Of a stretch of DNA of 64,000 bases, positions 3,591-38,160 are shown in pieces. The stretch lies in assembly GCA_030272155.1 (NCBI GenBank), contig CP126196.1:3100001-3164000 (forward strand), given 5' to 3'. The DNA comes from Tetradesmus obliquus (taxonomy: Eukaryota > Chlorophyta > Chlorophyceae > Sphaeropleales > Scenedesmaceae). Within the stretch, counting starts at the first letter, position 1. Every line of letters begins with the position of its first letter. The translations under genes and the position numbers were made by a program. The notes beneath the pieces were generated by a model, which did no database searches, was not told the origin of the DNA, and saw nothing but the letters and a program-made list of their open reading frames with translations.

Positions 3591-3787
3591 TGAAAGTTTA
3601 TTTTTTTTTTGAAGCAAGAACGTATTTTTTTTTTGAAGCAAGAACATATTTTTTTTTTGAGGCAAGAACGTTACAAGGGCTGACCTAAATAACTGTGCAC
3701 TTGCTCCATAAAAAGATCCATTGAGAAAGTGAAGAAACCTGTTCCGCACTCACCCCACAGGTATCTTGTACCAAGAGACGCTGAAAG
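3591..3787 (-). mobile_element. Serial LINE-A tail insertions
   Basis: Three minus-strand LINE-A 3' ends follow one another: only the last 13-14 bases plus poly(A) at 3,601-3,623, again at 3,624-3,647, and a ~125-bp 3' end at 3,648-3,783. The A-unit target TGAAAGTTTA is repeated around them. The arrangement looks like later insertions landing in or next to the T-rich tails of earlier ones. Confidence 0.75.
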
Positions 3788-4566
3788 TTTTTTTTTTTTT
3801 TTTGAAGCAAGAACGTTACAAGGGCTGACCTAAATAACTGTGCACTTGCTCCATAAAAAGATCCATTGAGAGAGTGAGGCAACCTGTTCCGCACTCACTC
3901 CACAGGTCTCTTGTACCAAGAGACGCTGTCACACGATCATGCAGACAGCCCCTTGCGGAGCAGCCCCGAAAGGCATCCAGGACCTGACCGAGTGCCCAGA
4001 CTCCACTAAAATCACAGTCGCGCAATGACGTCCAGTGATGTGTGACAGACCGTGACTGGCCCTTGAATCAAAATCCGTCCATGGCGCAACTGTCAGCTAT
4101 CACTGCATGGCGACTTGCACACCTCTAAAAGCTGCACTTTACAGGCAGCATTACGACACCTACACAAGACGCCTATTAATAGGTGACGGATTGTCGACAC
4201 AGACAATCCCCACCTGACTATTCATGGACTCTCCACTTCATGCAAAGCACATCCTGCTACTGACCGAACACACCCCTATGAGATATGTGGCATTCTGTAG
4301 GAAATGACACCACCTGAGGCACACAAAGCCACACACACACAAACTTATCCACACATGCTGCACACATCCTCGTACTCTGCTATCCACACGCACGCATACA
4401 TAACGTACTCTGCTACCCACTCACATGCAAACATAACGTATCCCGGCCATCAACTTAGCCTTTGCCATACTATGTTGCAACACATCACAACGAGGAACGA
4501 CGGCCACTACTCCAACGAATGCATTGTACACCCTGCCCGAACCGTCAAAACAGACCACCACGCCTC
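3788..4566 (-). mobile_element. LINE-A 3'-UTR fragment (763 bp plus poly(A))
   Basis: The T run at 3,788-3,803 is followed by LINE-A 3' UTR truncated at the CCACGCCTC position. TGAAAGTTT is present on both sides. It is a 5'-truncated insertion consisting only of untranslated sequence. Confidence 0.85.
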
Positions 4567-4755
4567 TGAAAGTTTATTTATTGTAATATCTCTTTGTAAA
4601 ATGTTGATTTATCAAATATGAAGCCGCAAGGATGTCCTGGGGGCAGGATGCGGGTTGGCACGGGTGTCTGTTAACTGCCACTGGAAACTCACTGGCCGGC
4701 TAAAATTCCTACTGGACGATTTTATCCCGTACGTTCCATGACCAAGCATGTTAGG
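4567..4755 (+). repeat. A-unit copy (partial)
   Basis: About 190 bp of the 312-bp satellite, starting TGAAAGTTTATTTATTG. It is interrupted by the plus-strand LINE-A fragment that follows. Confidence 0.85.
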
Positions 4756-5134
4756 CGTCTTGTGTAGGTGTCGTAATGCTGCCTGTAAATTGCAGCTTTT
4801 AGAGGTGTGCAAGTCGCCATGCAGTGATAGCTGACAGTTGCGCCATGGACGGATTTTGATTCAAGGGCCAGTCACGGTCTGTCACACATCACAGGACGTC
4901 ATTGCGCGACTGTGATTTTAGTGGAGTCTGGGCACTCGGTCAGGTCCTGGATGCCTTTCGGGGCTGCTCCGCAAGGGGCTGTCTGCATGATCGTGTGACA
5001 GCGTCTCTTGGTACAAGAGACCTGTGGAGTGAGTGCGGAATAGGTTGCCTCACTCTCTCAATGGATCTTTTTATGGAGCAAGTTCACAGTTATTTAGGTC
5101 AGCCCTTGTAACGTTCTTGCTTCGAAAAAAAAAA
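4756..5134 (+). mobile_element. LINE-A 3' fragment, plus orientation
   Basis: This 368-bp 3' end finishes TTGTAACGTTCTTGCTTC followed by a run of A. AGCATGTTAGG stands on both sides (about 4745-4755 and 5135-5145), a target-site duplication in the A-unit. It shows LINE-A insertions occur in both orientations. Confidence 0.85.
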
Positions 5135-6858
5135 GCATGTTAGGCCCTCACATGCCTAGGACTGACATACGAAAATAAGCGCAGTGGCCTTCGATGCGCC
5201 GCGACGGTTGAATTTTCGCTCCGGCCCGCCTCGTGGCCCATTATGGACATGTGCTAGGTGTGCTTCGTGAAAGTTTAATTTTTGTTATATCTCTTTGTAA
5301 AATGTTGATTTATCAAATATGAAGCCGTACGGATGTCCTGGGGGCAGGATGCGGGTTGGCACGGGTGTCTGTGAACTGCCACTGGAAACTCACTGGCCGG
5401 CTAAAATTCCTACTGGACGATTTCATCCCGGACGTTCCATGACCCAGCATGTTAGGCCCTCACATGCCTAGGGCTGACATACGAAAACAAGCGCAGCTGC
5501 CTTCGATGCGCCGCGACGGTTGCATTTTCGCTCCAGCCCGCCTCGTGGCCCATTATGAACATGTGCTAGGTGTGCTTCGTGAAAGTTTTTTTTTTTAAAC
5601 AAGAACGTTACAGTGAAAGTTTATTTATTGTTATATCTCTTTGTAAAATGTTGATTTATCAAATATGAAGCCGTACGGATGTCCTGGGGGCAGGATGCGG
5701 GTTGGCACGGGTGTCTGTGAACTGCCACTGGAAACTCACCGGCCGGCTAAAATTCCTACTGGACGATTTTATCCCGGACGTTCCATGACCAAGCATGTTA
5801 GGCCCTCACATGCCTAGGGCTGACATACGAAAATAAGCGCAGCGGCCTTCGATGCGCCGCGACGGTTGAATTTTCGCTCCGGCCCGCCTCGTGGCCCGTT
5901 ATGGACATGTGCTAGGTGTGCTTCGTGAAAGTTTAATCATTGTTATATCTCTTTGTAAAATGTTGATTTATCAAGTATGAAGCCGTACGGATGTCCTGGG
6001 GGCAGGATGCGGGTTGGCACGGGTGTCTGTGAACTGCCACTGGAAACTCACTGGCCGGCTAAAATTCCTACTGGACGATTTCATCCCGGACGTTCCATGA
6101 CCCAGCATGTTAGGCCCTCACATGCCTAGGGCTGACATACGAAAATAAGCGCAGCTGCCTTCGATGCGCCGCGACGGTTGAATTTTCGCTCCAGCCCGCC
6201 TCGTGGCCCATTATGAACATGTGCTAGGTGTGCTTCGTGAAAGTTTATTTTTATTTTGAAGCAAGAACGTATCAAGGGCTGACCTAAATAACTGTGCACT
6301 TGCACCATAAAAAGATCCATTGAGAAAGTGAAGCAACCTGTTATTTTTCTATTGAAGCAAGAACGTTACAAGGGCTGACCTAAATAACTGTGCACTTGCT
6401 CCATAAAAAGATCCATTGAGAGGGTGAGGCAACCTGTTCCGCACTCACCCCACAGGTCTCTTGTACCAAGAGACGCTGAAAGTTTATTTATTGTTATATC
6501 TCTTTGTAAAATGTTGATTTAACAAATATGAAGCCGTACGGATGTCCTGGGGGCAGGATGCGGGTTGGCACGGGTGTCTGTGAACTGCCACTGGAAACTC
6601 ACTGGCCGGCTAAAATTCCTACTGGACGATTTTATCCCGTACGTTCCATGACCAAGCATGTTAGGCCCTCACATGCCTAGGACTGACATACGAAAATTAG
6701 CGCAGTGGCCTTCGATGCGCCGCGACGGTTGAATTTTCGCTCCGGCCCGCCTCGTGGCCAATTTTTTTTTTTTGAAGCAAGCCTCGTGGCCCATTATGGA
6801 CATGTGCTAGGTGTGCTTCGTGAAAGTTTAATTATTGTTATATCTCTTTGTAAAATGT
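5135..6858 (+). repeat. A-unit satellite array with short LINE-A insertions
   Basis: Tandem ~312-bp A-units are interrupted by small minus-strand LINE-A ends near 5,587-5,613 and 6,248-6,480, and by a 22-bp insertion at 6,760-6,781. The last unit is broken at TAAAATGT (6,851-6,858), where the 17.9-kb block is inserted; the same unit resumes at 24,767. Confidence 0.85.
6760..6781 (-). mobile_element. Ultra-short LINE-A insertion (8 nt of 3' end plus poly(A))
   Basis: Only CTTGCTTC (minus strand) and a T-rich tail are inserted, and CCTCGTGGCC is duplicated on both sides (6750-6759 and 6782-6791). The same event recurs in many A-units further right, for example near 25,657, 30,648, 39,841 and 40,965, so it was multiplied with the satellite. 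Confidence 0.8.
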
Positions 6859-11060: not shown

Positions 11061-12662
11061 TTAGCTTTTCCGTCTTTTGACGTGTTTGCGGTGGCTTGGT
11101 GCCTTGAATGCCCTCTTCATGTGTGCTCTCTTGTTTTTGCTGCAGTTGTTGAGCTTCAGGTGGCCCAGGTGTTTGAGCAGTGCCCCGCGCTGCTTCCATA
11201 TCCTTTCCATGCCATTGATGGCAATGTAATGCAGGTCACGCAGCAGCTTCTTGAGCGCGGATCCCTTGACTCCTAAGTTTGTCAGCTGTTGTTCTGTCTC
11301 CGTAAAAATTACACCGGTGACCCCCAGCAGGATAGTGACCTGCCGTGCACTGGGTCGCGAGTAGTCCGTATTCGAGATCGCGGCACACATGCTGGTCATC
11401 TCTTGATTGCCTTGTGCGCCTAGTTCGGTTTGGGCGGAGGCACCGCTGATGCTGGTACGTAGGTGTTCATGTTGTTGGGTTGCTATGGCATGTTGTGTGC
11501 TTCTATCAGTGTCCCTGCAATATTTGATTTCCACCACCGTGAATTCGTTGTGTTGGTGGTTATACATCAGGGCATCCGGCACACTGTGTTGGTTGATTAG
11601 GGCGCGCTGCACTGCGAGGGGAACCGCCTCCAAGTATGGGTTGGCGAAGTCCTCAGCAGTATATCGTCTGCGGGTAGTCAGAGTGGTGCCATTGCGAGTG
11701 AGCTCCTCTTTGCTGCTTCTTTTGTGTACGCCAACATCCGATGTAACCAGTTCTCCACCTCTATCACCGTGTAGAATAGCCTTCACTATGGCGGTTCCCG
11801 CGTCGTTGTGTCGCAGTGTCACTGTTTGTGACAGCGCTGGGCAGCCGCTGATAGCATGGTGCCCTCCATCCTCTCTGCCGCACAGCAGGCACAGGCTGCT
11901 GGTGTTGCCTGTTTTGTCCCATCTGCTCAGCAGTTTCTGGGTGGGTACCTGCCCATAACGGGCTTGCAGTGGCAGCCGTTTTGTCTGCTGTGGCAGCTTG
12001 GGGTCGTTTATAAACAAGTGGCTGTACTCATGGTTCATGCCCGGGCATGCAGCCTCCCAGCTTCTGAAGTATATGGATTCTTGGTTTGAGGATCCCAGCT
12101 CTCCCGTTGTCAGCGCTATCTGCGCGAGAGTTTCACTCATATTGGCCAGTGGCACTAACCGGGTATGCTGCTCTGCTCCAGATGAGGATTCCGCCAAGGT
12201 CTCTGTGTGAGGCCATACCATATTGTTCCTATCATTACTCGGGTGGCTAAAGGTGCGAGTTTCCCGTGGTGGCGTGTCACCCTTTGCCACGCTTCCAGCC
12301 GCCCGATCTGCCTCTTCGTTGCCCACTATGCCGATGTGGCTTTTCACCTTCCACAGGTGGACCGTTCCCTCATGTGCGGCGACCGTGTTAGCAATGCTTT
12401 TGATGAGTGCAAAGTGCCGATGCTCTAGCATGTCTTGTGGTCTCGTGTTTGCTTTGAAGATTTGCCTGATACTGCCCAGGCTGTCCGTGGCGATGTGCAG
12501 CACGTCTGTGCTTGCCATGTGTTGGTCTGCCGCTTCAAAAGCTACGGATATGGCTGCCAGTTCGGCTCTGTTGATTGTATCTACGTGTTGTTCCGAGGTG
12601 CAGCAGTTGATTGGGATGGTCACGGGCACACGCCCGGTGAGTGGGTTGGCGGGAATGTGCAC
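11061..12662 (-). CDS. Dualen-type ORF: RNase H (C-terminal part), CCHC knuckle and restriction-like endonuclease
   Basis: About 533 codons. The first ~120 residues complete an RNase H fold: INRAELAAIS supplies the Glu, ATDSLGS the second Asp, and GNEEADRAAG the last Asp; the first Asp (YTDGS) lies upstream of a stop at 12,699. Next comes a zinc knuckle, CLLCGREDGGHHAISGC (C-x2-C-x8-H-x4-C), followed by LRHNDAG, the arrangement that precedes restriction-like endonucleases in R2-type LINEs. The nuclease core is VPDA...VVEIKY, giving PD...E-x-K (PD near 11,577, E-x-K near 11,523-11,531). The C-terminus is Lys/Arg-rich. The listed start is a GTG that merely follows the stop; the frame is continuous with the ORF at 12,699-15,257. 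The enzyme would nick the target DNA. Confidence 0.8.
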   Translation of the reverse strand: MHIPANPLTGRVPVTIPINCCTSEQHVDTINRAELAAISVAFEAADQHMASTDVLHIATDSLGSIRQIFKANTRPQDMLEHRHFALIKSIANTVAAHEGTVHLWKVKSHIGIVGNEEADRAAGSVAKGDTPPRETRTFSHPSNDRNNMVWPHTETLAESSSGAEQHTRLVPLANMSETLAQIALTTGELGSSNQESIYFRSWEAACPGMNHEYSHLFINDPKLPQQTKRLPLQARYGQVPTQKLLSRWDKTGNTSSLCLLCGREDGGHHAISGCPALSQTVTLRHNDAGTAIVKAILHGDRGGELVTSDVGVHKRSSKEELTRNGTTLTTRRRYTAEDFANPYLEAVPLAVQRALINQHSVPDALMYNHQHNEFTVVEIKYCRDTDRSTQHAIATQQHEHLRTSISGASAQTELGAQGNQEMTSMCAAISNTDYSRPSARQVTILLGVTGVIFTETEQQLTNLGVKGSALKKLLRDLHYIAINGMERIWKQRGALLKHLGHLKLNNCSKNKRAHMKRAFKAPSHRKHVKRRKS

Positions 12663-12698
12663 AGCCGCTCCTATGCCAGGTCCTTTTTGCTTTCGGTC

Positions 12699-15257
12699 TT
12701 AGGGTAAGACACTACCGTCCGTGTAAATGAACTCCCTCCAGTCATGTTTGAGGGCTGGTATTTCTCCCTGCAGTGTTTTCATCATTACGATTGCCTCCTG
12801 TACTGCCCGTCGAGTTTGGTCTCCCGGACAGGCCTCGCTCGTTGCCTGATAGCCTTGAATGACACTCGACGCGCCAGGAGTGTCTGTGGTGCGTGCCTCC
12901 TGGTCATGTTGTCCTTTGTGAGTGTGACCTCTTGTCAGAGTGAGAAGCCTGTCGATTGGCGGCACTCGGGGGCGTTGATCGCAGTCGTTAGGCCGTTGGC
13001 GGAATTTGCTTGGCAACGTGACGTTGTTTACATCCCGTGGCTGCCTAGAGATGTCCACAAAGCCGTCACCACTGTCTGCAGTCCCCCAATTGAGTCCTGG
13101 CCCGTTCGTTTCGCGATTAGCAAATATTTCAGTCATTCGAGTCTTAAATTTATCCCAGGCAGTGGCGCCATACGGTTCCTGCTCCCAGAATGGCAGATAC
13201 TCTCGAATCTCTGCCACGTTGCCCACTGCCAGCACGAATGTGTTCCATTTCAGCTTGGCATGGGGCGCGTGAGGCTTGTTGCCGGGGGGCTGGAGCTCCA
13301 TCCTACTGCTGGGGATGACCAGCAAGCGCCTGCAGCATTCAGGGTGGCGGTGCACCCAGTGCATGTATGGGGCGTTGCTGTATCCATCCTTGCTGTCAGA
13401 GAAGCTGGGCAGGAACAGCAGAGTTAAGGTGGGCTTTGCGTGAGTTGCTTTTGCCGAGTATACTGCCCACTGGACTGCTTGTGTGGCCGCGTCCTGGTCA
13501 AAGTCAGGCACCGCAACGCTGGGGCCTGTCCACTTGCTGCTGTATGCACTGCCTTGGGCGCCGAACATGCAGTCGTCCTTGAACGCAGAATAATATTTGC
13601 TGCATGCTGGGTGGACATTGAGTGGGCTTGCAAAGCGTTCCTGTTTGCATCCCAGCTCGTGGAAAAGGTAGTCCTTGAGTGCAGCCGGCAGTGTGCACTG
13701 CTGCTTTGCACTGATGGTTTTGCCGCCATTCCCAGGCATGCAGTTGCCTGGCGCATATCTGGTCACCAGCTTCACCAGGTCTTGTTCATATGTGGTGGAG
13801 CCGAGCTTGATCATGAGCTTTCGGTGGTGCCTTTGCATGTGCTTGTATCTGAGGTGCAATGCTGCTGCCACTGCAGGGGCAAGCATGTGCTCACATCGGC
13901 CGTCAGCATGGTACACGCATGCCAGCTCTCTGTGGCAGCAGGCAGACCCGTCCGGGCCTTCCCCAAATCTTACTTGCCGGAGAAGGACCTTTTGTGCACC
14001 GGTAGGTCCTATATCAGTGTGGGGATTTATTGGCAGCGCGTGCACCACCAGCTTTTGGCGTCTGGCCTGTCCTATCGTGATGTCGTACACGGAATCGGCA
14101 GGCGGCGGGGGCCGTGGTGCGGGACAGGCCTGCTTGGGAGGAGGGGGGCTGCTGTCATCTGCCGTAAGTTGCATACCTTGGACTGCCGGCATTGACAGCA
14201 ACTGTTCCTTTGCGTGGTCTGTGCCGGCTGCCAACACTGTTGGTATGGGTTCGTATGCGTCCTGCCAGGTCGCCTTGTATAGCCAGAGTTCCGGCGGCAG
14301 TGTGTCTGAGGTCCATCGCTTTGCTCTGCATTGCCTGCATTTGTACTGCTGTCCAAGGACGGGCTGTGTACCAGTTACGCACTGGACGTGGTACCGCCGG
14401 TGACACGCGCAGCAAGTGACGGTATCTGCTGCTGTGTCTCTCCGCGCGCAGATCTCACATGGCCATGGGATGCCTGTTAGAGCGACGTCGTCTGGCTGGA
14501 TGCGGGTCGGCGGCGCCGCCGTCTTGTAGCCCAGTTCCAGGAAGACTTGCAGCACATACCCGAGCTGGGCAGACTCTCCCCATTTTATTTTCACCTGCAG
14601 TTGTGTAGATGGTTGTGGTGTGTTGAGTTTCACCCGCGCGGGGCCGCCGGTGTCCACGCTGACAATGGTTTCCGGTTTCAGAGAGTACTGTTCTTGCAGG
14701 CCCAGCAGCTCCTGTTGCAAACGCTCTTTGTCTGCACCACAGGCTGCCCTATGCTGCGTCATTTTTTCTTGCACTTTCTCGTAGCCTGTTTTTGCTGTGC
14801 TGCGAGTGTTGTGTGTCCTGGCAGTTGGTTGCCTGATCAGTGCTGCGTTGTTGCGCGCACTGCTATCAAGGACTGTGTGCCTTCGCATGTGCATTCTCTC
14901 TTCCACCGTGAGTGTCATCTTGCTTCTGATGCTGTGGATGCGGTTGCGGTTGCTGTGCTGCAGGTCTGCAAGCATGTGTACTATGGTGTGTGGCTTGGCA
15001 TTTGGGTTGGCTGGCCACAGCGTTTGCAGGGCCTCCTTGATAGACGCGTGCAGATGCCGGCTGGCGTGTGACATGCCTGCTGCCGTGTCGCAGTGTCCAT
15101 CACGGATGTTTGTGCCTGTGGTGAGAAGGTGGCTTATCCTGTTCCATGCTGCTATTTGTTTCGCTCGGATTGTTCGGGCTCCCAGCATGGCCGCCAGGTC
15201 GGCAGCAGACCGCACTTTTGTGCGGGTGGCATCCAGCAGCTGTTCAATGGATTGCAC
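12699..15257 (-). CDS. Dualen-type ORF: PHD finger, PCIF1-like methyltransferase-fold region, RNase H start
   Basis: About 852 codons. Residues ~265-312 form a C4HC3 PHD finger (CEIC, then CCACHRRYHVQC, then CRQC). Residues ~520-690 resemble the catalytic domain of PCIF1/CAPAM (cap adenosine N6-methyltransferase): FASPLN, then YYSAFKDD and FGAQGSAYS, then a hydrophobic strand TLTLLFLPSF and a later LVIPSS. The position of PCIF1's catalytic NPPF reads VPDF (13,500-13,511), so activity is doubtful. The end, EFIYTDGSVLP, is the first RNase H strand with its catalytic Asp at 12,717-12,719, cut by TAA. The listed start is a GTG nine codons after the TAG ending the RT frame, in the same frame. The long middle part (~330-500) is unassigned. 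A chromatin-reading PHD could guide target choice (inference). Confidence 0.7.
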   Translation of the reverse strand: MQSIEQLLDATRTKVRSAADLAAMLGARTIRAKQIAAWNRISHLLTTGTNIRDGHCDTAAGMSHASRHLHASIKEALQTLWPANPNAKPHTIVHMLADLQHSNRNRIHSIRSKMTLTVEERMHMRRHTVLDSSARNNAALIRQPTARTHNTRSTAKTGYEKVQEKMTQHRAACGADKERLQQELLGLQEQYSLKPETIVSVDTGGPARVKLNTPQPSTQLQVKIKWGESAQLGYVLQVFLELGYKTAAPPTRIQPDDVALTGIPWPCEICARRDTAADTVTCCACHRRYHVQCVTGTQPVLGQQYKCRQCRAKRWTSDTLPPELWLYKATWQDAYEPIPTVLAAGTDHAKEQLLSMPAVQGMQLTADDSSPPPPKQACPAPRPPPPADSVYDITIGQARRQKLVVHALPINPHTDIGPTGAQKVLLRQVRFGEGPDGSACCHRELACVYHADGRCEHMLAPAVAAALHLRYKHMQRHHRKLMIKLGSTTYEQDLVKLVTRYAPGNCMPGNGGKTISAKQQCTLPAALKDYLFHELGCKQERFASPLNVHPACSKYYSAFKDDCMFGAQGSAYSSKWTGPSVAVPDFDQDAATQAVQWAVYSAKATHAKPTLTLLFLPSFSDSKDGYSNAPYMHWVHRHPECCRRLLVIPSSRMELQPPGNKPHAPHAKLKWNTFVLAVGNVAEIREYLPFWEQEPYGATAWDKFKTRMTEIFANRETNGPGLNWGTADSGDGFVDISRQPRDVNNVTLPSKFRQRPNDCDQRPRVPPIDRLLTLTRGHTHKGQHDQEARTTDTPGASSVIQGYQATSEACPGDQTRRAVQEAIVMMKTLQGEIPALKHDWREFIYTDGSVLP

Positions 15258-15284: not shown

Positions 15285-17285
15285 CTATACAAGTTGCCTG
15301 TCCCAGTGTGTGTGTCCATCGACCGCGTGCTCCAGCGCGGCGGCGAGCGTGCTCCTGTCTTTCATTGTGTCTAGTGGTTGCCCATCTTTGCAGACTCTTA
15401 GATCGCAGCGCTTGAAGGCCATCAGCTGCCTCACTCGCATGCTGTATCTGAGGGTGTACGGCAGCTCCTGTGCAGTGAGATTGTCCATGCCCTGGCACTG
15501 GCACTGGTAGAGGGCGTTGCTGAGCACACCCAATGTGCCAGCGTTGTTGAGTGACCTGGTTAGTCGTTCCACTCCTATCTTGTTGTATTCAACCTCTAGT
15601 GAGTGGCAGCCCAGTCCCCCTTTGTCTCTGCTTAGGTGTGCGGCTGCTGTGGACATGCTGGTAGGCAGTCTGTGTGCCTTTTTGACCGCCTTGGTGAGCA
15701 GGCTGTCTAGGCACTTGATTTCTGCTAGTGTGTAGGGTGCTGCCATGAAGGCGTATGTTATAGACGGACGGATGGACTGCTCAAGTATGCGCTGTTTCTG
15801 CTGCGTGCTAGCGAGTGATTTGCCAAGGTTGTGGGTCATGTTCGCTACCTCCTCAAGCGTGGCTTTCAGTTGGTGTTTGTAGTTTAGGTCCATGGTGAGC
15901 AGGACGCCCAGGTGGCGAAACGGCTGTTTCGGCGATTGATATGTGATTTTCTTATCTTGTATGCTAATTGTGTTGCACAACCGTTGCGCCAGGGCAGTTT
16001 CGTCGTATGGCTGGTGTGGCTGGTCACCATGCAGGGCCCCTGTGACAGTGGTTTTGGTGTTATTCACATTGAGGTGCCCCCAGTCTGCATAGTGGCTCAG
16101 TTTGGCTGCTTGATGTTTCAGGTTTGCTAGCCCAGATCTGCCTCCTGTTATGATGTTGACGTCGTCTGCATATGTTATATCCGTTATTTGGTGTGCCTGC
16201 CTTTCGGCGGCATCGAGGTGAGCCAGCGCTCCCGGCCGGTACCCTTTGTTTCCTGCGCGCAGCCAGCGCAACAGCGGCTCCATGTATAGCACAAACAGAA
16301 AGGGGGATAGGCTGTCGCCCTGTATGGTGCCGCGTTCTATGGGAATGTTTTTTGTCATGCCGTACGGGGTTTGCACTGCTGTTTTTGTTTGTGTGTACAG
16401 GTCTTTGACCACTTCGATTGCGTCTGTGGGGAAGTGCAGATCATACAGTATCATTAGCAGCTTGTCATGCGAGATGGTGTCAAACGCTTCAGTTAGGTCG
16501 GCTTGAATCATGAAAATGTTCTGTTTGAAAAGGTGGGCGTCTTCCAGCGCCATTATCATCATTTCCACCTGTTCTGCTGTGCTGCGTTTGTTGCGGAACC
16601 CAGCTTGAGAGCTGCTCAGCATGCCCAGTCGCTCAGCCCTGTCTGCCATGGTGCGCGTGACCATACGTGTCCACAGCTTATATACAGTGAGCTCCAGTCC
16701 GATCCATCTGTAGTATTTGAGTTCTAGTGGCGTGCCTTTGTGTTTGTAGAGAAGTAGCGTGGTGCTCCGCTTCCAGCTGTTTGGGGTGAGCCCTGTGGCC
16801 CACATGATGCGCATCATGTTGTGTAGCGCCTGGTGGCCTGATGGTGGTAGGGCCTTGATCACTTCATTGCACACGTCATCAGGCCCGGGTGTTTTGTTGT
16901 TTGCCAGTCCGTTCAGGCAGTGTTCAAACTCAAGCTCGTCATCTATGGCGTTATGTAGCCATTGTCGGTGGGTTGAGGCGGGTGCGGTGTGCTGCAGCAG
17001 GTTATGATATTGCCTAAATTCCTCATCAGTGGATGTGTCGAACGGGTAGTGCCGCGGTGCTTCTTCTGGGAGGTATTTCCCTTGCTTGCCGTTGGGTTCA
17101 GGTGCAGTGAACTTTCGGGTGGCAGTGGCTTCCACCTCTGGCAGTACTGTATGTTGTGTTGTTGCGTATGCTCCTTCCGGGGTTTTGATCACGCGCAGTG
17201 CCAGTGTGGGGTTGGGTTTGTGTTTGCCTAGGGCCAGCTTGTTTCCTCTGCGCTGATTTTGTTCCAGCTGTTGCTGTGTGCGCAT
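15285..17285 (-). CDS. Dualen-type ORF: reverse transcriptase
   Basis: About 666 codons with a full LINE-type RT domain. Residues ~125-140 (NNKTPGPDDVCNEVIK) match the region before finger motifs. Motif A is ADLTEAFD with the catalytic Asp near residue 263, motif B is RGTIQGDSLSP (~318-328), motif C is YADD (372-375), and motif D LNVNNTKT follows. The remainder fits thumb and linker. The Met at 17,285 lies six codons after a TAG (17,304) that ends the endonuclease frame; both frames are the same, so this start is probably not a natural one. The frame ends in TAG at 15,285-15,287. The enzyme would copy element RNA at the nicked target. Confidence 0.85.
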   Translation of the reverse strand: MRTQQQLEQNQRRGNKLALGKHKPNPTLALRVIKTPEGAYATTQHTVLPEVEATATRKFTAPEPNGKQGKYLPEEAPRHYPFDTSTDEEFRQYHNLLQHTAPASTHRQWLHNAIDDELEFEHCLNGLANNKTPGPDDVCNEVIKALPPSGHQALHNMMRIMWATGLTPNSWKRSTTLLLYKHKGTPLELKYYRWIGLELTVYKLWTRMVTRTMADRAERLGMLSSSQAGFRNKRSTAEQVEMMIMALEDAHLFKQNIFMIQADLTEAFDTISHDKLLMILYDLHFPTDAIEVVKDLYTQTKTAVQTPYGMTKNIPIERGTIQGDSLSPFLFVLYMEPLLRWLRAGNKGYRPGALAHLDAAERQAHQITDITYADDVNIITGGRSGLANLKHQAAKLSHYADWGHLNVNNTKTTVTGALHGDQPHQPYDETALAQRLCNTISIQDKKITYQSPKQPFRHLGVLLTMDLNYKHQLKATLEEVANMTHNLGKSLASTQQKQRILEQSIRPSITYAFMAAPYTLAEIKCLDSLLTKAVKKAHRLPTSMSTAAAHLSRDKGGLGCHSLEVEYNKIGVERLTRSLNNAGTLGVLSNALYQCQCQGMDNLTAQELPYTLRYSMRVRQLMAFKRCDLRVCKDGQPLDTMKDRSTLAAALEHAVDGHTHWDRQLV

Positions 17286-17303: not shown

Positions 17304-19118
17304 CTAACGGGGGCACTGCTTGTCTATTTCATTGAGCTGCGCACGTGTTTTGTCCCTCACCGCCTGGTGCGCCTGAACCACATCATGTTCGGGGTGTTCT
17401 TCTAGATGTTCTTGCACCAGCCGCTGCACTGTGGCAAACGCCGCCTGCGACGGCGTTGCCACGTGCTTGCTGTGGGGAGTTCTGTGCTTGGCCGTGTGCA
17501 GCAGCATCGTGGCGGCTTTGTGGTCTGCTGACGCTTGGTCACGCAGCGCGGTGACGTCGAGTGTGTCGTCTGCTGGAGATTGGTCTTGTCTCCCATGGGC
17601 CCCCAGCACCACGCTGATTGCATGTCTGAGCTGCGCGAGGCGTTTGCGCGTACATCGCAGCCGTCTCTTCCTGTAGTGTTTCCAGCCGTGTGTGCTATCT
17701 ATTGTGAGACACACCTCATATGCTTCATCCCTGGCATTGGCCAGTAGCGACAGGATCTTTTCCCCCAGAGCATTCACCACGTCGTTAGCCGGCTGCTCGT
17801 TTATGCGCTGCAGCGTGCGCGGCCGGTCGGCCGACGTGCACTCCAATGCTTGCCAGTGTGGCCTGACATCCTGCTGTACTATGTTGGTTGTTTCTCGGAG
17901 CAGTGCTTCCCAGTCCTGGCCGTGTCGAGTGGCCAGGGCATGTTGTAGGGCCTTCGTGCTAGCTGTCGTGAGTCGTTTTAGGCGCACACCGCCGCGCTGC
18001 TCTGCTTGATCCGGCGGGGGCAACAGGTCCAGGGTTGTGAATGGCATGTGCAGCAAAAGGCCATGGTGGTCAAAGTATGTGCCCACAGTGTCTACTACGG
18101 TGGTTTGCATGTGCTGTGTTAGGTCATGCCGCGATGGGTGCAGCGCAGGACTCATCTGTATGTATATGTCATCTATGCGGCTGTGTTCATGAGCTGTTGT
18201 GCCCCGCAGGTACGTGTAGGCCCTGGCCGTGCCATCTGTGGGCGGTGGGTCCGTGTGGAGCAGTTGTGTGTCGGCCAAGAACTGGCGCAGGCTGTGGTCC
18301 CTTGCATATGCCTTGCCGTTAGCCCGATCATTGTCTTGGGCCGTGCCGTTCCAGTCACCTGCGAGCATGACGTTGTGCTTGTGTTCCTTTGCGTCGCGTA
18401 GCACCGTGGCGCATTCCTTGTAGATCTCGTCACGCAGTATCTTGGCGTTGCCATTTGAGGGGCTGTATACTCCTAGTACATGCAGCGGGGTTGACGCGGG
18501 CAGGTCGATCTGCACGTGTGTGATGTACTGTGCCAGTGTTGTGTTGTGCAGCGGGATCTTCTGCACATTGCCTAGCTCGCAGAGTGGTTGCATCACCGCC
18601 ACCACCACTCCGAACCTGGGTTCAGTATGAGAGACTGTGGGTGATACATGAAGCGGGTTCATGAAGACCTGGTAGTCTGTCAGCAGGTGTTTTAGGGTGT
18701 CGTGTGTCCTGGTGTATTTGTGATCGGTGAGCACCACCAAGTGCGGTTTGTGATCTCCTGTGTTTTCAATCAGTTGTTTCAGTTCTGCGCGCTTGCTGGC
18801 TGCTCTATGGCTGCAGCCGCCTGGCCGCGTGGCAGATATGCCTTGCACATTCTGCAGATATAGCTTGAGGTGTTGCTGCTGGGCGGTGAGCAACGTGCTG
18901 CCATCACCTCCACTGGCGGGTTGTTGTGCTTCCTGGCGTGCTGGCTGCTCAGCAGGCTGGTGTGGCTGTGGTGGCTGCTTCTCGGTCGTCTGTATTGGCA
19001 GCTGTGCCGGCGGCTGTGCTGGCAGTTGTGTTGGCTGGTGTGTGGGGCATTGTGACAGTCCCTGTGGCGGTGGTTGCGCCAGCTGCCTCACCGGCTGCTG
19101 TCCAGGGCTTTGCGCCAC
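17304..19118 (-). CDS. Dualen-type ORF: AP-like (EEP) endonuclease
   Basis: About 604 codons. A Pro/Gln-rich linker (residues 1-85) is followed by an EEP domain: LYLQNVQGIS (Asn motif), LVVLTDHKYT (usual E-T-K replaced by D-H-K), VLGVYSPS, VMLAGDWNGT (GDWN for the usual GDFN), SRIDDIYI, and YFDHHG at the place of the SDH motif. Catalytic features are recognisable but several positions deviate. The rest (~350-604) is helical, charged linker leading into the RT frame. The start is a GTG within a 31-bp overlap with the upstream protease frame; the Pro/Gln linker remains open upstream in this frame to about 19,200, so the two parts were probably one protein. Confidence 0.75.
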   Translation of the reverse strand: MAQSPGQQPVRQLAQPPPQGLSQCPTHQPTQLPAQPPAQLPIQTTEKQPPQPHQPAEQPARQEAQQPASGGDGSTLLTAQQQHLKLYLQNVQGISATRPGGCSHRAASKRAELKQLIENTGDHKPHLVVLTDHKYTRTHDTLKHLLTDYQVFMNPLHVSPTVSHTEPRFGVVVAVMQPLCELGNVQKIPLHNTTLAQYITHVQIDLPASTPLHVLGVYSPSNGNAKILRDEIYKECATVLRDAKEHKHNVMLAGDWNGTAQDNDRANGKAYARDHSLRQFLADTQLLHTDPPPTDGTARAYTYLRGTTAHEHSRIDDIYIQMSPALHPSRHDLTQHMQTTVVDTVGTYFDHHGLLLHMPFTTLDLLPPPDQAEQRGGVRLKRLTTASTKALQHALATRHGQDWEALLRETTNIVQQDVRPHWQALECTSADRPRTLQRINEQPANDVVNALGEKILSLLANARDEAYEVCLTIDSTHGWKHYRKRRLRCTRKRLAQLRHAISVVLGAHGRQDQSPADDTLDVTALRDQASADHKAATMLLHTAKHRTPHSKHVATPSQAAFATVQRLVQEHLEEHPEHDVVQAHQAVRDKTRAQLNEIDKQCPR

Positions 19119-22100
19119 AGATTTGGCTTGTGGCCGGTGTGCTGGCTGCTCAGCAGGCGGTCGCGTTGCTTCTCTTGTTGCTGTGGTGGCTGCTGCTTGG
19201 GCGGTTGTGCCGGCGGCTGTGCCGGCGGACGTGGTGGCGGCTGTGTCGGCTGGCGTGTCGGCTGCTGTTCAGGCCTGTGTGCTGCGGTGGCGGTTGCTGT
19301 GGTCGGCTTTGCCGCAGTGGTTGTGCCACTCACAGTTGCTGCCTTACGCAACAGCTGCTGGATGTCCTGTGTGTGCGAAGCTGCTATGTTGGGCTTGCGG
19401 CGCGGCCGCGCTTTGTGCGTGGCTGTTTTGGCAGGGTTGGTGGCCGCTTCTGTGGTGGGACGGGTGGTGAGCCCGAAGTACTTAGCTATTGTGTTATGTG
19501 TCAGAGGAGGCTGGCTGCTCTTGGAGGGTTTGCCTGGCTTACGTGAGGTGCGTGAGCTGGCTACGGGTGGGGTTAGCCTCGTGCCGCCGCTTGCTTGGGA
19601 GTGAGTGTTCGCCCGCGCCGTGTGGCTGGCTGGAAACGTGCCTGCCTGCGGCGCTGCGGTTGACAGCTGTTGTCGCTTGCTGGTTGGAGCAGTCTGTAAT
19701 GCGTGGCCAGCAGTGCGTTTCCTCCCGGCCGCCGTGTCTGTGCCCGTTGCATGCGGTGTGTCTGTGGACGTGGTTTGTTGCCGGGGGGTGTGGGCGGGAG
19801 TAACCGTGCCATCCGTGTTGACAATGCGTTGTTTGCTGGTGCTGTATTTCAGCGTGGCGCCATCCACCCATGTCAGTGTCTTGATGCTCGGGGCGGTGCG
19901 CGAGCCACGCGCGCGGTTAGGTCTGTGTGGTGGTTCGATCAAGGTGCATCCATATTCAATGGGGTCCATCTCGACCAGGCAGTACAGGCAACCTGCAAAG
20001 TTCTCCCAGTCCCTTCGGTGCATGCGTTTCACCTTGCCTGTGGCCGCGTACGGTATGCTGTCACAATTGTACCAGTGGCCGTCTGTTGCTTGGCGCCAAG
20101 TAGTGAAGTGGTTGATCGAGGGTGTCAGGGCGAAGTGCGCTATGATGCCCTTGCAGTTGACGGGTGCGTAGTCCAGTATCTCTTGCTGGCTGTATCGTTG
20201 TTGCATGCAGTTCAGGAAGTTTCTCAGCGTCACCTGTCGTTGGCTGCTGCTGTGTTCTACTGCGTATAGGTTCAGGTGCGCTGGCCCATAGTTGCCATTG
20301 GGCTGCAGAGCTGCTAGTTCAGAGTGCGGAGCATTGCTTGATATAAGTGCCTGGTAGAAGAAGTTGGGCGCCACCCGTTTGCCCAGCAGGGCGTGCCATG
20401 CATGGCAGAGGCATTGCATATCTATTTGAGGTTCGCAGTACAGGCCAACCACCGCGGGGTCCACCCAGACCTCCTGCTCTGTGTCCCCATCGTCGATGCT
20501 CATTGGTTTACCATGCACTGTTTCCGGTTGTGTTTGTGCGTGTTGTTCATCCGTTAGCATGGGCTGAGCTTCGTCTTCTCCTCCTTCCTCGCTTGAGATG
20601 TCCATGTGTTCCACATCTGTTCGTGCTAGTGGGTTGCTCCAGTAGACATCAGGCTGCGCTGGTGGGTCTACCTGCATGTTGGTGTCAGGCGCTGCATCGG
20701 AGCGTTGTGCCGCCAGGCGGGCGAACATGCGCTCCTGGTGCGCGGCTGCCATGCACTTCACCGGCTCGGTACTGAGTTGTATGGACCTCCCATCAACAGC
20801 TACTCCCGTGCCTGGTTGTTGAGCGTAGAAGGTGTTCCCATGTTCATCAATTGGCATGAGCATACCCCTTCCAGCCATGTATGCGTCACCTGAGACCAAG
20901 CACATCATGTTGCCTGTGAACGCCTGCCAATCCTGCTCCGTCAGCTGTTTCACTTTTCCGTGCTCGGCATATGCGAGGCTTTCACACTCGTACCAGCTGC
21001 CTTTGGAGTTGTTTGTGCTGTGTGTGCCCTGTGGGTGCACACGGGTTTCCTGCGCCCAGGCTTTGTAGTGCAGAATGCGCGATCCTTCGTCGTTTATGTG
21101 CTCGTATTGAATGAATATGGCTGTGCACCCTGCTGGAGCGGCGCGTAGCGCGTCTGCTTGAGACATGCCAGGTTGTACCACTTCGAGGAAGGGGTGCAGC
21201 ATGTACCTGGCACCCGTGTGTTCGTAGAGCCAGGTGTTGATTGCGGCTATGTCGTACTGTCCGTCGCGCTCGAGCAGGTCAGGGAGTACGTCCCCTGCGA
21301 TGCGGGCGTTGGCAACGCTAGCTTGCAGCGCTCTAACCATGTATGTGGTGGCGTGGGTGATCGCAGCCCTGCCCAACAGAGCGTTGAGTGCATGTGCACC
21401 ACAGTGTCGGTCTGTCTGTGCCTCACAATAAAGCCCCACGGAGCGGGGATCCATCCATGTGCCTTGCGGCAGTGGTCTTTTTTGTGGTCGCTTTCTGTAG
21501 GTGTGCCCCCCTCCTTTGATCGGCATTGTGCTAGCAGCTGCATCTCCCTTGGGTGCGGGTTGGTCAGCGCTGAGCGCCGGAGTTGATTGCGTGCTGGTGT
21601 TGACGGGTTCGTCCGTGCTGTTTTCGGATCTAGCTGTTGTCGCTGCTTCTGCTTCTGCTGTTGTTGTGGTGACTGTTGGCGTTGTCGCTGCTGTTGCTGC
21701 TGCCGCTGCTGCAGCAGCGGCTGCATTTGCCTTTTCTTGTATTGCTGCGATTAGTTTTGCTAGGTCGTTCAAGTGAGCTTCAAGTCGTGGCAGCATGAGT
21801 GTGCCATATAAGCTGCGTTGCCAGTGTTTGTGTTGCCGCGCTGGTGTTGGTAACTTCCAGTGCAGCAGGTCATCCTTGACTCTAGCGAGGGTGGCTCGGC
21901 GGGCCTGCTTATTCAGCAGTTTACGCCTGGCTCGTTTAAATGACCTTTGTTTCACTCTGGCGAGCGCCACTAAGCGTCTGTGCACGGTGAGCTTACGCTG
22001 AGCTGCTGTGCGCATGCGGCGCCGACAGTTGACGGTGGTCTGCTTATTCGGCTGTTTGCGTCTGGTTCGTCTAGAGCGTCTTCGTTTCACCCTGGCAGGT

Positions 22101-31933: not shown

Positions 31934-33350
31934 TCACATGCCAGCCGCGCTGGCGCGAACCTTGATGCGCCCATTTGCGCCCATCCTATACAGTGCTCCC
32001 CACTTCTGCTCAAAGTCAACAAGTTTGATCTCAGGCGACCTTCCCTGCAGCCATGCAAACGGTATCCCACAACCTATCCTAACATCTACTTCCACCCTAT
32101 CCCACTCCCTCTGAATTTGCTGCCGCAGCGCTGCCAGAAACCTACACGCCACAGCCTTAGCAGCGTATGATGAGCTGCCCGGCTCGCCAGTTGTACCCCG
32201 TTGACTGCCCATGCTGCTGCTGCTGCTGTCCTCTGCATCGCTGATGCCGTGGCTCTGAGATTGAGAATTGCTGCCTGCATTGCGGCTGCCGCTGCCATCG
32301 CTGCCATCTGTACTGGCCACAATCACGCCAGCCCTGATGCTGCTGCAGCGCACCACCCAAATGGACTCCAGCAGCAGCAGACGCAGCTGCGTCCACATCT
32401 GCTGCTGCCCTGCTGGCGGGGCCCACACACTGAAGTCATCCAGCAGCAGCAGACGGCTGTTATTAACAGGGACCACTGCTCCGGGCTGCACACGCTGCCA
32501 CACCTGTTGCGCGTACCACTGCCACGCTGCTGCAGCTACAGGGCACTCCACTAACAAGTGGGTGAGGGTCTCCAGTTGCTGCGGCTGCTGGCACTGCTGT
32601 GCTGGGCAGGTAAAGTGAGCCGGCGCGTGCCTGCTGGATGCCAGCATGCGCCGTGCGCCTACCTTCACTCCTGCATGCAGAAGCCGCCAGCCAAACACTC
32701 GCAGCCGCCTCGGCAGCTGGGTGTCTTTTAGCCGCTGATAACTCGCCACCCAGCGGTGCTGCCTGGCATTGGCAGCACCCATGGAGTGAGTGATCGGGTC
32801 CAGTAGATCATTGTGTGATGGGCAGCTGATGCGCTGCTGTTGCTGCTCCTGTTGCTGCCGTTGAGCCGTGACTACTGCTGCTGCTGTTGCCGCGCGCTGT
32901 CTTGGCAGCTCCCGCTCCCTGGACGGATCCATCCAGGACGCATGGTAAGCCGCCATCATAGCTGCGTCGCTCAACCGCTGGCTGCCACTGCTGCTGCTGC
33001 TACGATTGCCAGGCGCCTCGCTATTTTGCTGCATTTGCTGGAAGGACCGTTTCTGAGCTGCCTCCATCTCCTGCAAGCCGTCCTGTGGCGCCTCAGCACC
33101 CAGGCGGTTGCGCCACAGGCGCGGGCGCATGCCGACACCTGATACCCATCCCTCTTTGCACTGCCGACTGCATTGCTCCTGCAGCAGCCTGCATGTTGCC
33201 ACCTTTGGCGTGAACTGCAGCAAGCTGACAGCAAACCCCATCCCCCATACACTAGGATCTACGCGAATGTCTGCCCAAGCCCCCACCAGGTACCATGACG
33301 GCGTGCTTCGCGATTGCTGCTGCTGCTGCTGTTGCTGGTGCTGTCCTTGG

Positions 33351-33401
<51 letters not shown>

Positions 33402-33410
33402 CCCTGGTGG

Positions 33411-33441
<31 letters not shown>

Positions 33442-36400
33442 GTTCCTGTTGTTGCTGCTGTCGCGGCTGTTGCTGTTGCCATGCAGCTGGCTGCTGCAGC
33501 TGCTGCTGCTGACGTTCCTGTTGTTGCTGCTGTCGTGGCTGCCGCTGTTGCCGTGCTGCTGGCTGCTGCCGCTGTTGCTGCTGCTGCTGCCGCTGCTGCC
33601 GCTGCCGCTGCTGCCGCTGCTGTTGTTGCCGCTGAAATGCAGGGTGCGGCACTGCTGTTACATCTACCACACAACATGGCGCCCATTGGAGGGCTGCTGT
33701 GTCCATTAGGACAGCTGTTGTGGCCTTCAAGCTGCCATCCTGCTGCACCTTGTAGCACTTGGTGGTGCCATCGTGCTGCAACTGTTGTGCCCACTGTTGC
33801 TGCGTGTCGGTCTGCCATGCACCTGTGCTGCCCTCCCGCAGAGTGTGCAGCCATGCCGGCGGCAGCACAATGCCATCTTGCTGCGGCTGTCCAGTTAGCT
33901 GCTGCTGCACCTGCCCCAGTGTGGTGCCTGCGCCGTGGCGCAGCTGAGCAGGGAGGGCACCGGCTGCTGCCAACATCTGCCCATCTGAGCTGCTGCCCAC
34001 GCTGTGGTTCCCCACTAGCAGCTCAAGCTGGATCTGCTGGCTGGTCATGGCGCTGTGCTCGACGTGCCTGTGAATGCCCACGCTTTGCAGCGCCTCTATG
34101 TATGCTGATAGGCGCAGCGGCAGCCTGCCGCCCCTGGCGGCAGCCTGCAGCGGCGCCTTTGATCGCTGCACCAACGCTGCCTCCCCTAGTCCTGGCAGTG
34201 CGTGGCGCAGGTTGGCCCGCATGAAGGCCTTCCATGGGGCTCGCCGCGGCGACAGCAATGCTGCTGCTGTACGTGCCTGCATTGCTGTGGCGTGCGCCCT
34301 GACATCAACCTGCCTCATTCCGCCCATGCTGAAAGGCAGGCTGGCCACTGCTGCCGGAGGGCTTTCATTCCACTGCCGGATGTTGGCTTCTCGAGCGCAG
34401 CCCTGCTCTGTCACAAACCCTAAGAGGCGGCGGTGCATCCTGGCCATGATATCTACTGGGACTGGCACGAACTGCGCATGATAGGTGATGCAAGATGCCA
34501 TCATCTGCTGCGCAACTGCGCAGCGCCCCAAATAGCTGAGATTCTGCCGTGCCCACTGCCGCGCCCGGTATGTGATGGTTTGCAGGCGCTGCGTGTACAG
34601 CGCTGCTGCATGCGGCTCTGCGCCTGCTGCTGACAGCAGCAGACCCAGGTGCCTGATCGGGTGTAGTGCTGTATCATGGAACGGTATCTGCGTGGCTGGA
34701 TCTACCCCTACAAACGGCTGCTGCGTGCCCACTTCCATGCCCTGGCACTTGCTGACTCCCAGCTTGGCGCCACTCGCTGCACAAAACGGTTGTACTGCTT
34801 TCCTCACCAGCACAGCAACGCCTTGCCTGCTGGCGGCGTGCAGGGTGGTGTCGTCTGCATGCTGCATGCTGCAGGGTGCTGCTGAGCCATCGGGCATGCT
34901 GATGCTGTCCACTTCCCCTGCTGCTTGCAGCGCTCTGCATTTGGCCGCCAGCGGCTGCGCTGCTAGCACATACAGCAGCGGGCTGAGTGGGCTGCCCTGC
35001 GCGCAGCCAGAGGGGACGTCAAACACCCTGCTGAGGTGGCCGCCGTTGAACACGATGCGGCCCTGTGTGCCTGCCAGCAGCAGCTGTACCCACCTACGCA
35101 TGCCTGGCGGGAACTGCATTGCTGCCATGCACTTCATCAGCCATTCCCTGTCTAGCCTGTCATAGGCCTTCTCAAAATCCAGAAACAAAATGCAGCCGGG
35201 CTGCTGTTGCGTCCTGAGGAAGTCAACTTCCTCCAGGTGCAGCAGCACATTGTCTGCAATGTCCCTGCCTGGAACAAACGCTGTCTGAGTGCTGTCCACG
35301 ACGCTGTCCAGCACTGGCGCCGCCCGCAGCACCACCACCTTCGCCAAAATTTTCACATCACAGTTCATCAGCGTGATGGGGCGGTAGCTGGCAGCCTGGT
35401 CCCTTGGCTTACCGCCACCCTTGAACAGTAAGGTGATGAGCCCAAGGCGCTGCTGCGGAGACAGCAGCGCCCCCTCCAGACCAAACCGGAAGTTGCATGC
35501 TGCCACAAAAGCTGGTCCTAGCTGCTCCCAGAATGCGCTATAGAACTCATACGTGAGCCCATCGCTGCCTGGCACCTTCCCTCTAGGCATGCTGTTGAGT
35601 GCCGCTGTCGCCTCCTCCAAGGTGATGGTGCCGTCGCCTGCGGGGCCCAGGCATTGCTGTTGCTGCTCCGAAGAAAGCTGCTTATCCACACACGCAAGCA
35701 GCTCCTGCTGCTGCTGTGGGTCGGTGGGGCGTCGCGAGAACAGCCCGTCTTCTGCAGGGTCATAAAAGTCTGCAAGCAGGCTGCCTGCTGCTGCCGCGCC
35801 CTCGCTGCTGCCAGTGGACACTGTGGTGCCATCTGCTGCAGCCACAGCGCTGATATACTGCGGCTCCGGCACGGCCTGCCCTAGCCTCGCTCCCCAAAAG
35901 CTAGACGGGCCATCAGCGTACAGCTCGTACATCGCATCAGTCTTCTCCTGCTGCTGCTGGCGTTGCTGCACTTCATAATCCAGCAACTGCTGTTCTGCAT
36001 GCTGAAGGTTGGTTTGCGTCTGCCCATTGCTGTGCTGGCGCTGCTGCCAGCCGGCTGTTGCCACCGCCCTGCGCAGCCGCCTAAGTTCTGCCTGCTGCTG
36101 CAGCCTCTGTCGCTGCATTATGACTGCAGTGGCAGTCACAGCATGCTGCTTAAGGTGCTCAAACTCAGCTGCTGGGTTGTTGCGCGGCCGCTGCTGCTGC
36201 TGCTGCTCCACCGCTGCTGACAGGCTCTCCTGCATAGCTGAGACAAAAGCTGCGCCACCCAGAGCAGAGGTGGGGAAGCACCACCTGCGCTGTCCAAGGA
36301 GCGGCATGCCAGGCGGCCGCAGCTTGACAACCACAGGGCGGTGATCTGAAGGCTGCCTCATGTGCTGTGTGGCCTTCTGCAGCCAGCCCTCCTCAACCAG

Positions 36401-36555
36401 GTCTGCTGACAAGAAGACATAGTCAATCCTGCCGGCTGACGTGGCTTGATTTGCTGCTGCTGGCTGGCCCTGATCTCGCCTGCTGCCTGCTGCTGCTGCA
36501 GCCGCTACTGCAGCCGCCGCGGCTGCAGCATGAGCTGTGGCTGTAGCGTCTGTTA

Positions 36556-36601
<46 letters not shown>

Positions 36602-36982
36602 GGCTGCCGCGTTGCTGCTGCCAGCTGCGCTGCCATGGTAGCTGTAATGCGTAGGCTGCCTGGCGTGCGGGTTGCAGTGTCGCCACGCATCCACCAGGCC
36701 CGAGCGCACAGTGACGCGCTGCAGCTGCGCTGCCCCCACCATGCGGCGCGAGTGTCGCGCCCGCGTGCCAGCCACTGGCTGCACGTCGATTTCCTGCAAG
36801 GCACAGTTGAAGTCCCCGCCCACAATCAGGCTGGACCCCTGCGCGCCTGCCTCCAGTGCCTCCTGATAAGGCCCCTGAAACCAGGCTGGGCGCCCCGTGG
36901 GTTCGTGCGGCGCATACACCGCCACCGCTGCCACCTGCTGGGGACAGGATGCGGGTTGGCACGGGTGTCTGTGAACTGCCAC
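31934..36982 (-). CDS. LINE-A ORF2: AP endonuclease (partial), reverse transcriptase, zinc region
   Basis: 1,682 codons open to TGA at 31,934. The first ~12 residues (MAVHRHPCQPAS) come from the flanking A-unit, so the start is accidental and the protein lacks the N-terminal Asn and Glu motifs of the endonuclease. Visible parts: VGGDFNCAL, a Ser/Ala-rich insert, IDYVFLS and SDHRPV; RT with LFLDFEKAYDRLD (motif A, 35,150-35,188), GCAQGSPLSP (motif B), HADD (motif C, 34,850-34,861, His for the usual Phe/Tyr) and KLGVSKCQGM (motif D); a long Gln-rich tract; and a zf-RVT-like segment with CPAQQC and HLLVECP near 32,530-32,620. No RNase H is seen. Poly-Ala and poly-Gln runs reflect CAG repeats. 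Confidence 0.88.
33314..33631 (-). repeat. CAG/CTG repeat coding poly-Gln in LINE-A ORF2 (copy 2)
   Basis: CTG-rich on the plus strand, encoding Gln runs broken by Arg, Pro and Ala. It is longer than the same tract in copy 1 by extra imperfect blocks containing QPAARQQRQP-like units. Confidence 0.9.
36540..36605 (-). repeat. Second CTG/CAG run, coding Ala in LINE-A ORF2
   Basis: A run of GCTGCT-type triplets within the endonuclease domain between the GDFN and SDHRPV motifs, giving a poly-Ala insert with Thr. It is unlikely to be part of the endonuclease fold. Confidence 0.7.
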
Positions 36983-38160
36983 TGGAAACTCACTGGCCGG
37001 CTAAAATTCCTACTGGACGATTTTATCCCGGACGTTCCATGACCAAGCATGTTAGGCCCTCACATGCCTAGGGCTGACATACGAAAATAAGCGCAGCTGC
37101 CTTCGATGCGCCGCGACGGTTGCATTTTCGCTCCAGCCCGCCTCGTGGCCCATTATGAACATGTGCTTCGTGAAAGTTTAATTTTATTTTATTTTTTGAA
37201 AATAAGAACGTTACAGTGAAAGTTTAATTATTGTTATATCTCTTTGTAAAATGTTGATTTATCAAATATGAAGCCGTACGGATGTCCTGGGGGCAGGATG
37301 CGGGTTGGCACGGGTGTCTGTGAACTGCCACTGGAAACTCACCGGCCGGCTAAAATTCCTACTGGATGATTTTATCCCGGACGTTCCATGACCAAGCATG
37401 TTGGGCCCTCACATGCCTAAGGCTGACATACGAAAATAAGCGCAGCTGCCTTCGATGCGCCGCGACGGCTGAATTTTTGCTCCGGCCCGCCTCGTGGCCC
37501 GTTATGGACATGTGCTAGGTGTGCTTCGTGAAAGTTTATTTTTATTTTGAAGCAAGAACGTATCAAGGGCTGACCCAAATAACTGTGCACTTGCACCATA
37601 AAAAGATCCATTGAGAAAGTGAAGCAACCTGTTTTTTTTTTTTCTTTTGAAGCAAGAACATTACAAGGGCTGACCTAAATAACTGTGCACTTGCTCCATA
37701 AAAGGATCCATTGAGAGGGTGAGGCAACCTGTTCCGCACTCACCCCACAGGTCTCTTGTACCAAGAGACGCTGAAAGTTTAATTATTGTTATATCTCTTT
37801 GTAAAATGTTGATTTATCAAATATGAAGCCGTACGGATGTCCTGGGGGCAGGATGCGGGTTGGCACGGGTGTCTGTGAACTGCCACTGGAAACTCACTGG
37901 CCGGCTAAAATTCCTACTGGACGATTTTATCCCGGACGTTCCATGACCAAGCATGTTAGGCCCTCACATGCCTAGGACTGACATACGAAAATAAGCGCAG
38001 CGGCCTTCGATGCTCCGCGACGGTTGAATTTTCGCTCCGGCCCGTCTCGTGGTCCATTATGGACATGTGCTAGGTGTGCTTCGTGAAAGTTTAATTATTG
38101 TTATATCTCTTTGTAAAATGTTGATTTATCAAATATGAAGCCGTAAGGATGTCCTGGGGG

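Follow-up and report, generated by a model that had tools for sequence, protein, structure and literature searches.

A PCIF1/CAPAM-type domain without the catalytic asparagine, possibly retained as a binding module, in Dualen-like LINEs of Tetradesmus obliquus

We propose, with moderate confidence, that Dualen-like LINEs of the green alga Tetradesmus obliquus carry a PCIF1/CAPAM-type domain that has lost its catalytic asparagine, is fused in frame between the reverse transcriptase (RT), with its PHD-like finger, and RNase H, and survives, under selection, as a binding module. One such element lies in the window, i.e., the whole stretch of 64,000 nucleotides analysed here (contig CP126196.1, positions 3,100,001 to 3,164,000), and its relatives were sought throughout the genome (104.66 Mb, 17 contigs).

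Architecture and state of the element

The LINE polyprotein is encoded on the minus strand of the window, from ~24.6 to 11.06 kb, and its features, from the N-terminal end, are as follows:

19949..21466, minus strand: two tandem Cys-His protease-like domains (Josephin-like); PDB profile matches below significance
18204..18851, minus strand: APE-type endonuclease; PF03372, E 2.3e-4, 21.4 bits, under the cut-off of 24.5 in the window copy
15957..16721, minus strand: reverse transcriptase; PF00078, E 7.7e-24
14328..14459, minus strand: PHD-finger-like zinc motif; PF00628, E 3.1e-4, 21.2 bits, under the cut-off of 24
13746..14090, minus strand: segment upstream of the core, VYDITIGQ to LVTRYAPG; conserved across LINE families
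13383..13796, minus strand: PCIF1_WW (PF12237) match, i.e., the CAPAM-type methyltransferase core, residues 497-634 of an 861-residue frame; hmmscan
13185..13703, minus strand: methyltransferase-like core, approximate full extent, QQCTLP to EYLPFW; profile alignment to human and zebrafish PCIF1
12285..12725, minus strand: RNase H, with an in-frame TAA (12,699-12,701) inside; PF00075, E 7.5e-10
11520..11891, minus strand: C-terminal CxxC...H...C knuckle and PD-x14-E; by eye

Only the last residues (from 497) of the conserved segment at 13746..14090 fall inside the PF12237 match, and the RNase H consists of a Pfam match at 12,285-12,602 together with a YTDGS motif at 12,711-12,725. Neither a Pfam profile nor a PDB entry matched the C-terminal region (11520..11891), whose Cys-His knuckle and PD-x14-E we take to resemble the restriction-like endonucleases of LINEs. 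In the Josephin-like N-terminal domains, seen in the window element and in two others (L051 and L052), a Q, a C, and an H are invariant. A profile of these domains returned six PDB matches, none of them significant; five were deubiquitinases or isopeptidases (PaJOS, Josephin-2, TssM twice, and USPL1; E 0.09-1.3) and the sixth was labelled amyloid-beta A4.

The window copy is broken, since its frame, which is ~8.2 kb long and otherwise open, contains three in-frame stops (TAG 17,304-17,306, TAG 15,285-15,287, and TAA 12,699-12,701, all on the minus strand), and a change of frame occurs near 19.1-19.3 kb. Another copy, L002, is uninterrupted at all three of these stop positions.

Placement of the element with Dualen, as proposed in the initial annotation, agrees with its domain content, i.e., APE, RT, and RNase H in one polyprotein. 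Dualen/RandI non-LTR retrotransposons are described as possessing both APE and RLE, and RNase H has been reported in them (PMC4640811); Dualen is on record from Chlamydomonas and from cryptophytes (PMC8226300, PMC12747079). The likeness lies in a single frame that encodes APE, RT, and RNase H, all above the Pfam cut-off in the related L051/L006 element (where PF03372 scores 37.4 bits), and in the C-terminal Cys-His and PD-E motifs read by eye. The present elements differ in that RT and RNase H are separated by a PHD-like finger and a PCIF1-like domain, and in having Josephin-like domains at the N terminus. When two overlapping stretches are combined, the Pfam order of the L006 element is APE, RT, PHD-like, PCIF1, and RNase H, with the PHD-like finger under its cut-off (E 0.046); in the L015 element, RT is followed by PCIF1 and then RNase H, and no match to APE was found.

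The LINE sits in satellite-like sequence. Repeats of ~312-358 bases and of 33 bases flank it on both sides (at ~3,600-6,450 and 24,800-59,700), and positions 59,743-64,000 are occupied by a tandem array with a 447-base unit (9.5 copies, 100% match). A second LINE on the minus strand (31,934-37,000) has a poly-Q-rich open frame of 1,688 codons and an RT that is 24% identical, and is without the PCIF1 region.

Homology to PCIF1/CAPAM

A series of motifs from the PCIF1 catalytic domain had been recognised, in PCIF1 order, in the region between RT and RNase H. All of them are present on the minus strand in that order, at the coordinates below, with the RT match (15,957-16,721) on one side and RNase H on the other:

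13617..13634, minus strand: FASPLN, common to PCIF1; sequence comparison
13,572-13,595, minus strand: YYSAFKDD; named in the initial annotation
13,539-13,565, minus strand: FGAQGSAYS; named in the initial annotation
13500..13511, minus strand: VPDF, where PCIF1 has the catalytic NPPF; sequence comparison
13,401-13,430, minus strand: TLTLLFLPSF; named in the initial annotation as LTLLFLPSF
13,305-13,322, minus strand: LVIPSS; named in the initial annotation

The homology that these motifs had been taken to indicate is borne out by a PF12237 match above the curated cut-off (hmmscan, Pfam; E 4e-12, 46.5 bits against 31.1) and by a profile of the LINE domains, which matches PCIF1 alone in the PDB. 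PF12237 (PCIF1_WW) has been described as misnamed, its content being a CAPAM-like methyltransferase and no WW domain (PMC7641849), and no WW family was detected at E <=1 when the window frames and two related elements were scanned against Pfam. The profile was built from an alignment, A1, of seven LINE-derived domains of this genome (seven of the 16 loci aligned earlier, one a fragment). Among 177,635 PDB sequences (hmmsearch), it matched human PCIF1 (the sequence of 6irv/6irw) at E 5.3e-4 and zebrafish PCIF1 (6irx) at E 1.7e-3, and nothing else at E <=10. Profile positions 131-296 were aligned with chain residues 326-491 of 6irv, a span that takes in FASPLN, NPPF, a VPEW-like segment, and the stretch after it. 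All seven members of A1 match PF12237 at E <=1, and the invariant columns, which by our reading of the profile alignment appear to agree with PCIF1, include SPL, S168, D173, F176, G189, A193, P195, and P228. Comparison of the A1 profile with PCIF1 gave no significant match to the PCIF1 helical domain in the LINE sequences.

Searches with single sequences gave weak matches. With the window domain alone (phmmer, PDB), zebrafish and human PCIF1 were the best two (E 0.053 and 0.56) and were followed by two antibody chains at E ~1, and the whole 861-residue frame matched PCIF1 at E 0.44. An AlphaFold model made from the window sequence alone had a mean pLDDT of 35.3, too low to read any fold. Pattern matches were obtained in viral contigs (window domain and A1 as queries) and in prokaryote genome contigs (window domain as query), none of which encoded a relative. 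The domain is best described by comparison with PCIF1/CAPAM itself, the cap-specific adenosine N6-methyltransferase: it is alike in a methyltransferase core over ~166 residues, in FASPLN, and in how the later segments are ordered and spaced, but it has neither the asparagine of NPPF nor a WW domain nor a recognisable helical domain, and it is fused within a LINE polyprotein.

Distribution among element copies

The domain is present in several element families of the same genome. The 861-residue window frame has 31 matches in the genome, and PF12237 scored above its cut-off at 16 of the 17 places found genome-wide, i.e., 14 LINE places and two exons of a host gene; none of 14 control genomes gave a match. 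At five loci, the domain lies inside open frames of 3,217-3,648 codons. Three of these are copies whose proteins are 97-99% alike (L002, 3,217 codons; L003, 3,637 codons; L004, 3,513 codons). Over 5,583 bases, L002 and the window share 99.73% identity, and the frame of L002 stays open as far as the sequence examined extends; L003 ceases to resemble the window within RNase H, and L004 changes frame there. The other two belong to more distant families (~40% and ~32% identical), with open frames of 3,648 codons in L006 and 3,352 codons in L015.

Presence of the domain was also scored from the RT side. Of the 14 RT-region loci with at least 39% identity, 12 are followed on the same strand by a PCIF1 region no more than 6 kb downstream; this region extends across the core at 11 of them, at one with a change of frame, and the twelfth (C17:791,061) has the front part only. 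The two RT loci without the domain are a match limited to query residues 1-153, which precede the RT core, and a copy that has decayed. Among the 46 distant RT loci (24-26% identity, including the second LINE in the window), no PCIF1 region was found within 10 kb. All of these are minimum counts, as scoring covered 66 of the 161 candidates.

Active-site motif

The change from NPPF to VPDF, noted previously in the window, was confirmed there, and loss of the asparagine extends to other element families of the genome. A motif survey yielded 23 rows representing 21 loci, 18 of which reach the NPPF position while the other three stop short. The motif reads VPDF at five loci, VPNF at four, VPDT at four, VPGT at one, CPDF at two, and CPDY at one, and the last is a fragment ending after TP. 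Thus, the catalytic asparagine (first position) is missing at all 18 (V at 14, C at three, T at one), proline occupies the second position at all 18, and among the 17 loci with a complete motif, 16 have D or N in the third. The phenylalanine is lost as well at five of the 18 (VPDT or VPGT), and the VPDT variant occurs in the open frame of 3,352 codons (L015). SPL of FASPLN is retained at 17 of the 18, with NPL in the fragment. An active site of the m5C type consists of Pro-Cys; such a reading of the CPDF variants was ruled out because their cysteine stands before the proline, not after it. The asparagine loss, shared by the families read, suggests a single loss, probably before the element families parted.

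Mutants of related enzymes bear on what this loss would mean. The activity of human PCIF1 is reported to be lowered by N553A and by F556G (PMC11550742), and in METTL16, N184A is reported to abolish methylation and F187G, at the position equivalent to the motif phenylalanine, to abolish RNA binding too (PMC7927073). Given these mutants and the absence of the asparagine from all 18 loci, N6-adenine methylation by the LINE domain is very improbable, and the VPDT and VPGT copies, having no phenylalanine, count against strict reliance on the former adenine pocket. The m7G contacts described for PCIF1 involve a Glu in the core and Arg residues in the helical domain (PMC11550742); no position in the LINE core is a certain counterpart of this Glu.

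Retention of SPL at 17 of 18 loci, together with the S, D, and F that follow it and are invariant in A1, suggests that S-adenosylmethionine or S-adenosylhomocysteine may still be bound as a structural ligand. These same residues weigh on the possibility that the domain serves as a structural scaffold or a protein-protein surface of the polyprotein, with neither nucleic acid nor SAM as ligand. Loss of the asparagine throughout and of the phenylalanine at five of the 18 readable loci would fit such a role, but a bare scaffold presumably need not retain SPL and the invariant residues, and we regard this role as unlikely.

Selection on the domain

The methyltransferase core is under purifying selection in five copy pairs. 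With pairwise alignment, dN/dS of the methyltransferase part was 0.13 for L006/L008, 0.14 for L007/L009, 0.19 for L015/L016, 0.13 for L015/L017, and 0.16 for L016/L017, and Fisher tests on rounded site counts gave p from 5e-8 to 5e-5 for these pairs, which are not independent of one another. For L011/L012, dN/dS was 0.15 over 70 codons. Pairs that include the decayed copy L005 gave 0.38 (L001/L005) and 0.49 (L003/L005). The near-identical copies L001-L004 differ by 0 to 3 changes of each kind, too few to tell (e.g., the L001/L002 core has three nonsynonymous and no synonymous differences). Without pairwise alignment, dN/dS exceeded 1 for L001/L005 and L003/L005 and was 0.57 for L011/L012, a discrepancy that probably stems from misaligned frames. 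Values for the upstream and downstream parts contain frameshifted or flanking sequence and were set aside as evidence. In L007/L009, synonymous divergence was 0.14 in the core and 0.32 and 0.35 in the neighbouring parts, which include some flanking sequence; extra constraint or gene conversion is possible.

Purifying selection in the five pairs, and D or N at the third motif position in 16 of 17 full loci, could also be expected of a methyltransferase that is still active with an altered site, [VC]P[DN][FY]. We consider this improbable, because the asparagine is reported to matter in both PCIF1 (PMC11550742) and METTL16 (PMC7927073), and because VPDT and VPGT variants exist, the former within a 3,352-codon open frame.

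Origin of the domain

A host PCIF1 gene is present on contig 10, where two PF12237 matches lie in different frames with ~330 bases between them, apparently because an intron divides them. As scored, the first match contains one stop; the gene retains FASPLN and EANPPF. Over 87 residues in hand-chosen pieces, the host protein shares 43 identities with human and 44 with zebrafish PCIF1, and 31, 25, 27, and 24 with four LINE families. Since the LINE domain is less host-like than animal PCIF1 is, recent capture from this host is disfavoured and the present host gene is an unlikely source.

The host gene also bears on whether the resemblance might be due to chance, or to a decayed fragment of a host gene trapped in one copy. 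The window copy is indeed broken and its single-sequence match in the PDB is weak; nevertheless, the curated Pfam match, the profile match to PCIF1 only, the occurrence in several families, the selection, and the separate host gene leave this explanation scarcely credible.

Function and significance

If the domain is a binding module, we infer, with less confidence than we place in the module itself, that its ligand would be RNA, and that the part it most likely holds is the capped 5' end of the transcript made from the element itself. PCIF1 is described as gripping the cap between its helical domain and its core (PMC7927073, PMC11550742), and binding of RNA 5' ends is favoured because a LINE would profit from gripping the 5' end of its own mRNA. 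Two findings weigh against it: the LINE sequences gave no significant match to the helical domain that recognises m7G together with the core, and five of the 18 loci lack the phenylalanine whose METTL16 equivalent is needed for RNA binding (PMC7927073). Such a hold might favour intact mRNA as template; alternatively, keeping the 5' end near the RT might allow insertion to be completed. A bolder form of this proposal, that a LINE clade turned a cap-methyltransferase into a cap clamp which grasps the capped 5' end of the element's mRNA and links it to the RT, is tentative and in our estimate unlikely.

The domain might instead bind target or complementary DNA during target-primed reverse transcription, and not RNA 5' ends. 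It shares its polyprotein with RT, RNase H, and an APE-type endonuclease, and human PCIF1 has been reported to act on single-stranded DNA also; yet the same report gives capped RNA as the preferred substrate of PCIF1 (PMC11550742), and we hold DNA binding to be quite unlikely.

For the preferred reading, a binding module derived from a methyltransferase, there are precedents. The "catalytic-dead Pcif1" of Drosophila (Franco, 2023), known to us by title, is reportedly a PCIF1 relative that is dead in catalysis yet has a role; it is a cellular gene, whereas the domain described here belongs to a mobile element. For human PCIF1, a methyltransferase-independent role has been reported (PMC12896973). 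Uptake of methyltransferase domains by retroelements is likewise known from retrotransposons that acquired cytosine methyltransferases (PMC5890265); those are DNA cytosine enzymes, whereas the present domain is of the PCIF1 type and without the catalytic asparagine. In the open-licence literature, we found no papers joining PCIF1, retrotransposon, and chlorophyte, and among the open-licence matches listed, none describes a PCIF1-type domain in a retroelement, although mention in Kojima and Fujiwara (2005) or in Iyer and others (2016) is possible.

LINEs are known to gain extra domains, and a PCIF1-type domain would link retrotransposition to cap biology. As found here, the LINE domain represents a conserved natural variant of PCIF1 without the catalytic asparagine. 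If the domain binds caps, it would provide a testable explanation of how the 5' end of an element's RNA is recognised by the LINE protein, and a cap clamp, if true, would explain both the choice of full-length RNA and the finishing of the 5' end of the new copy.
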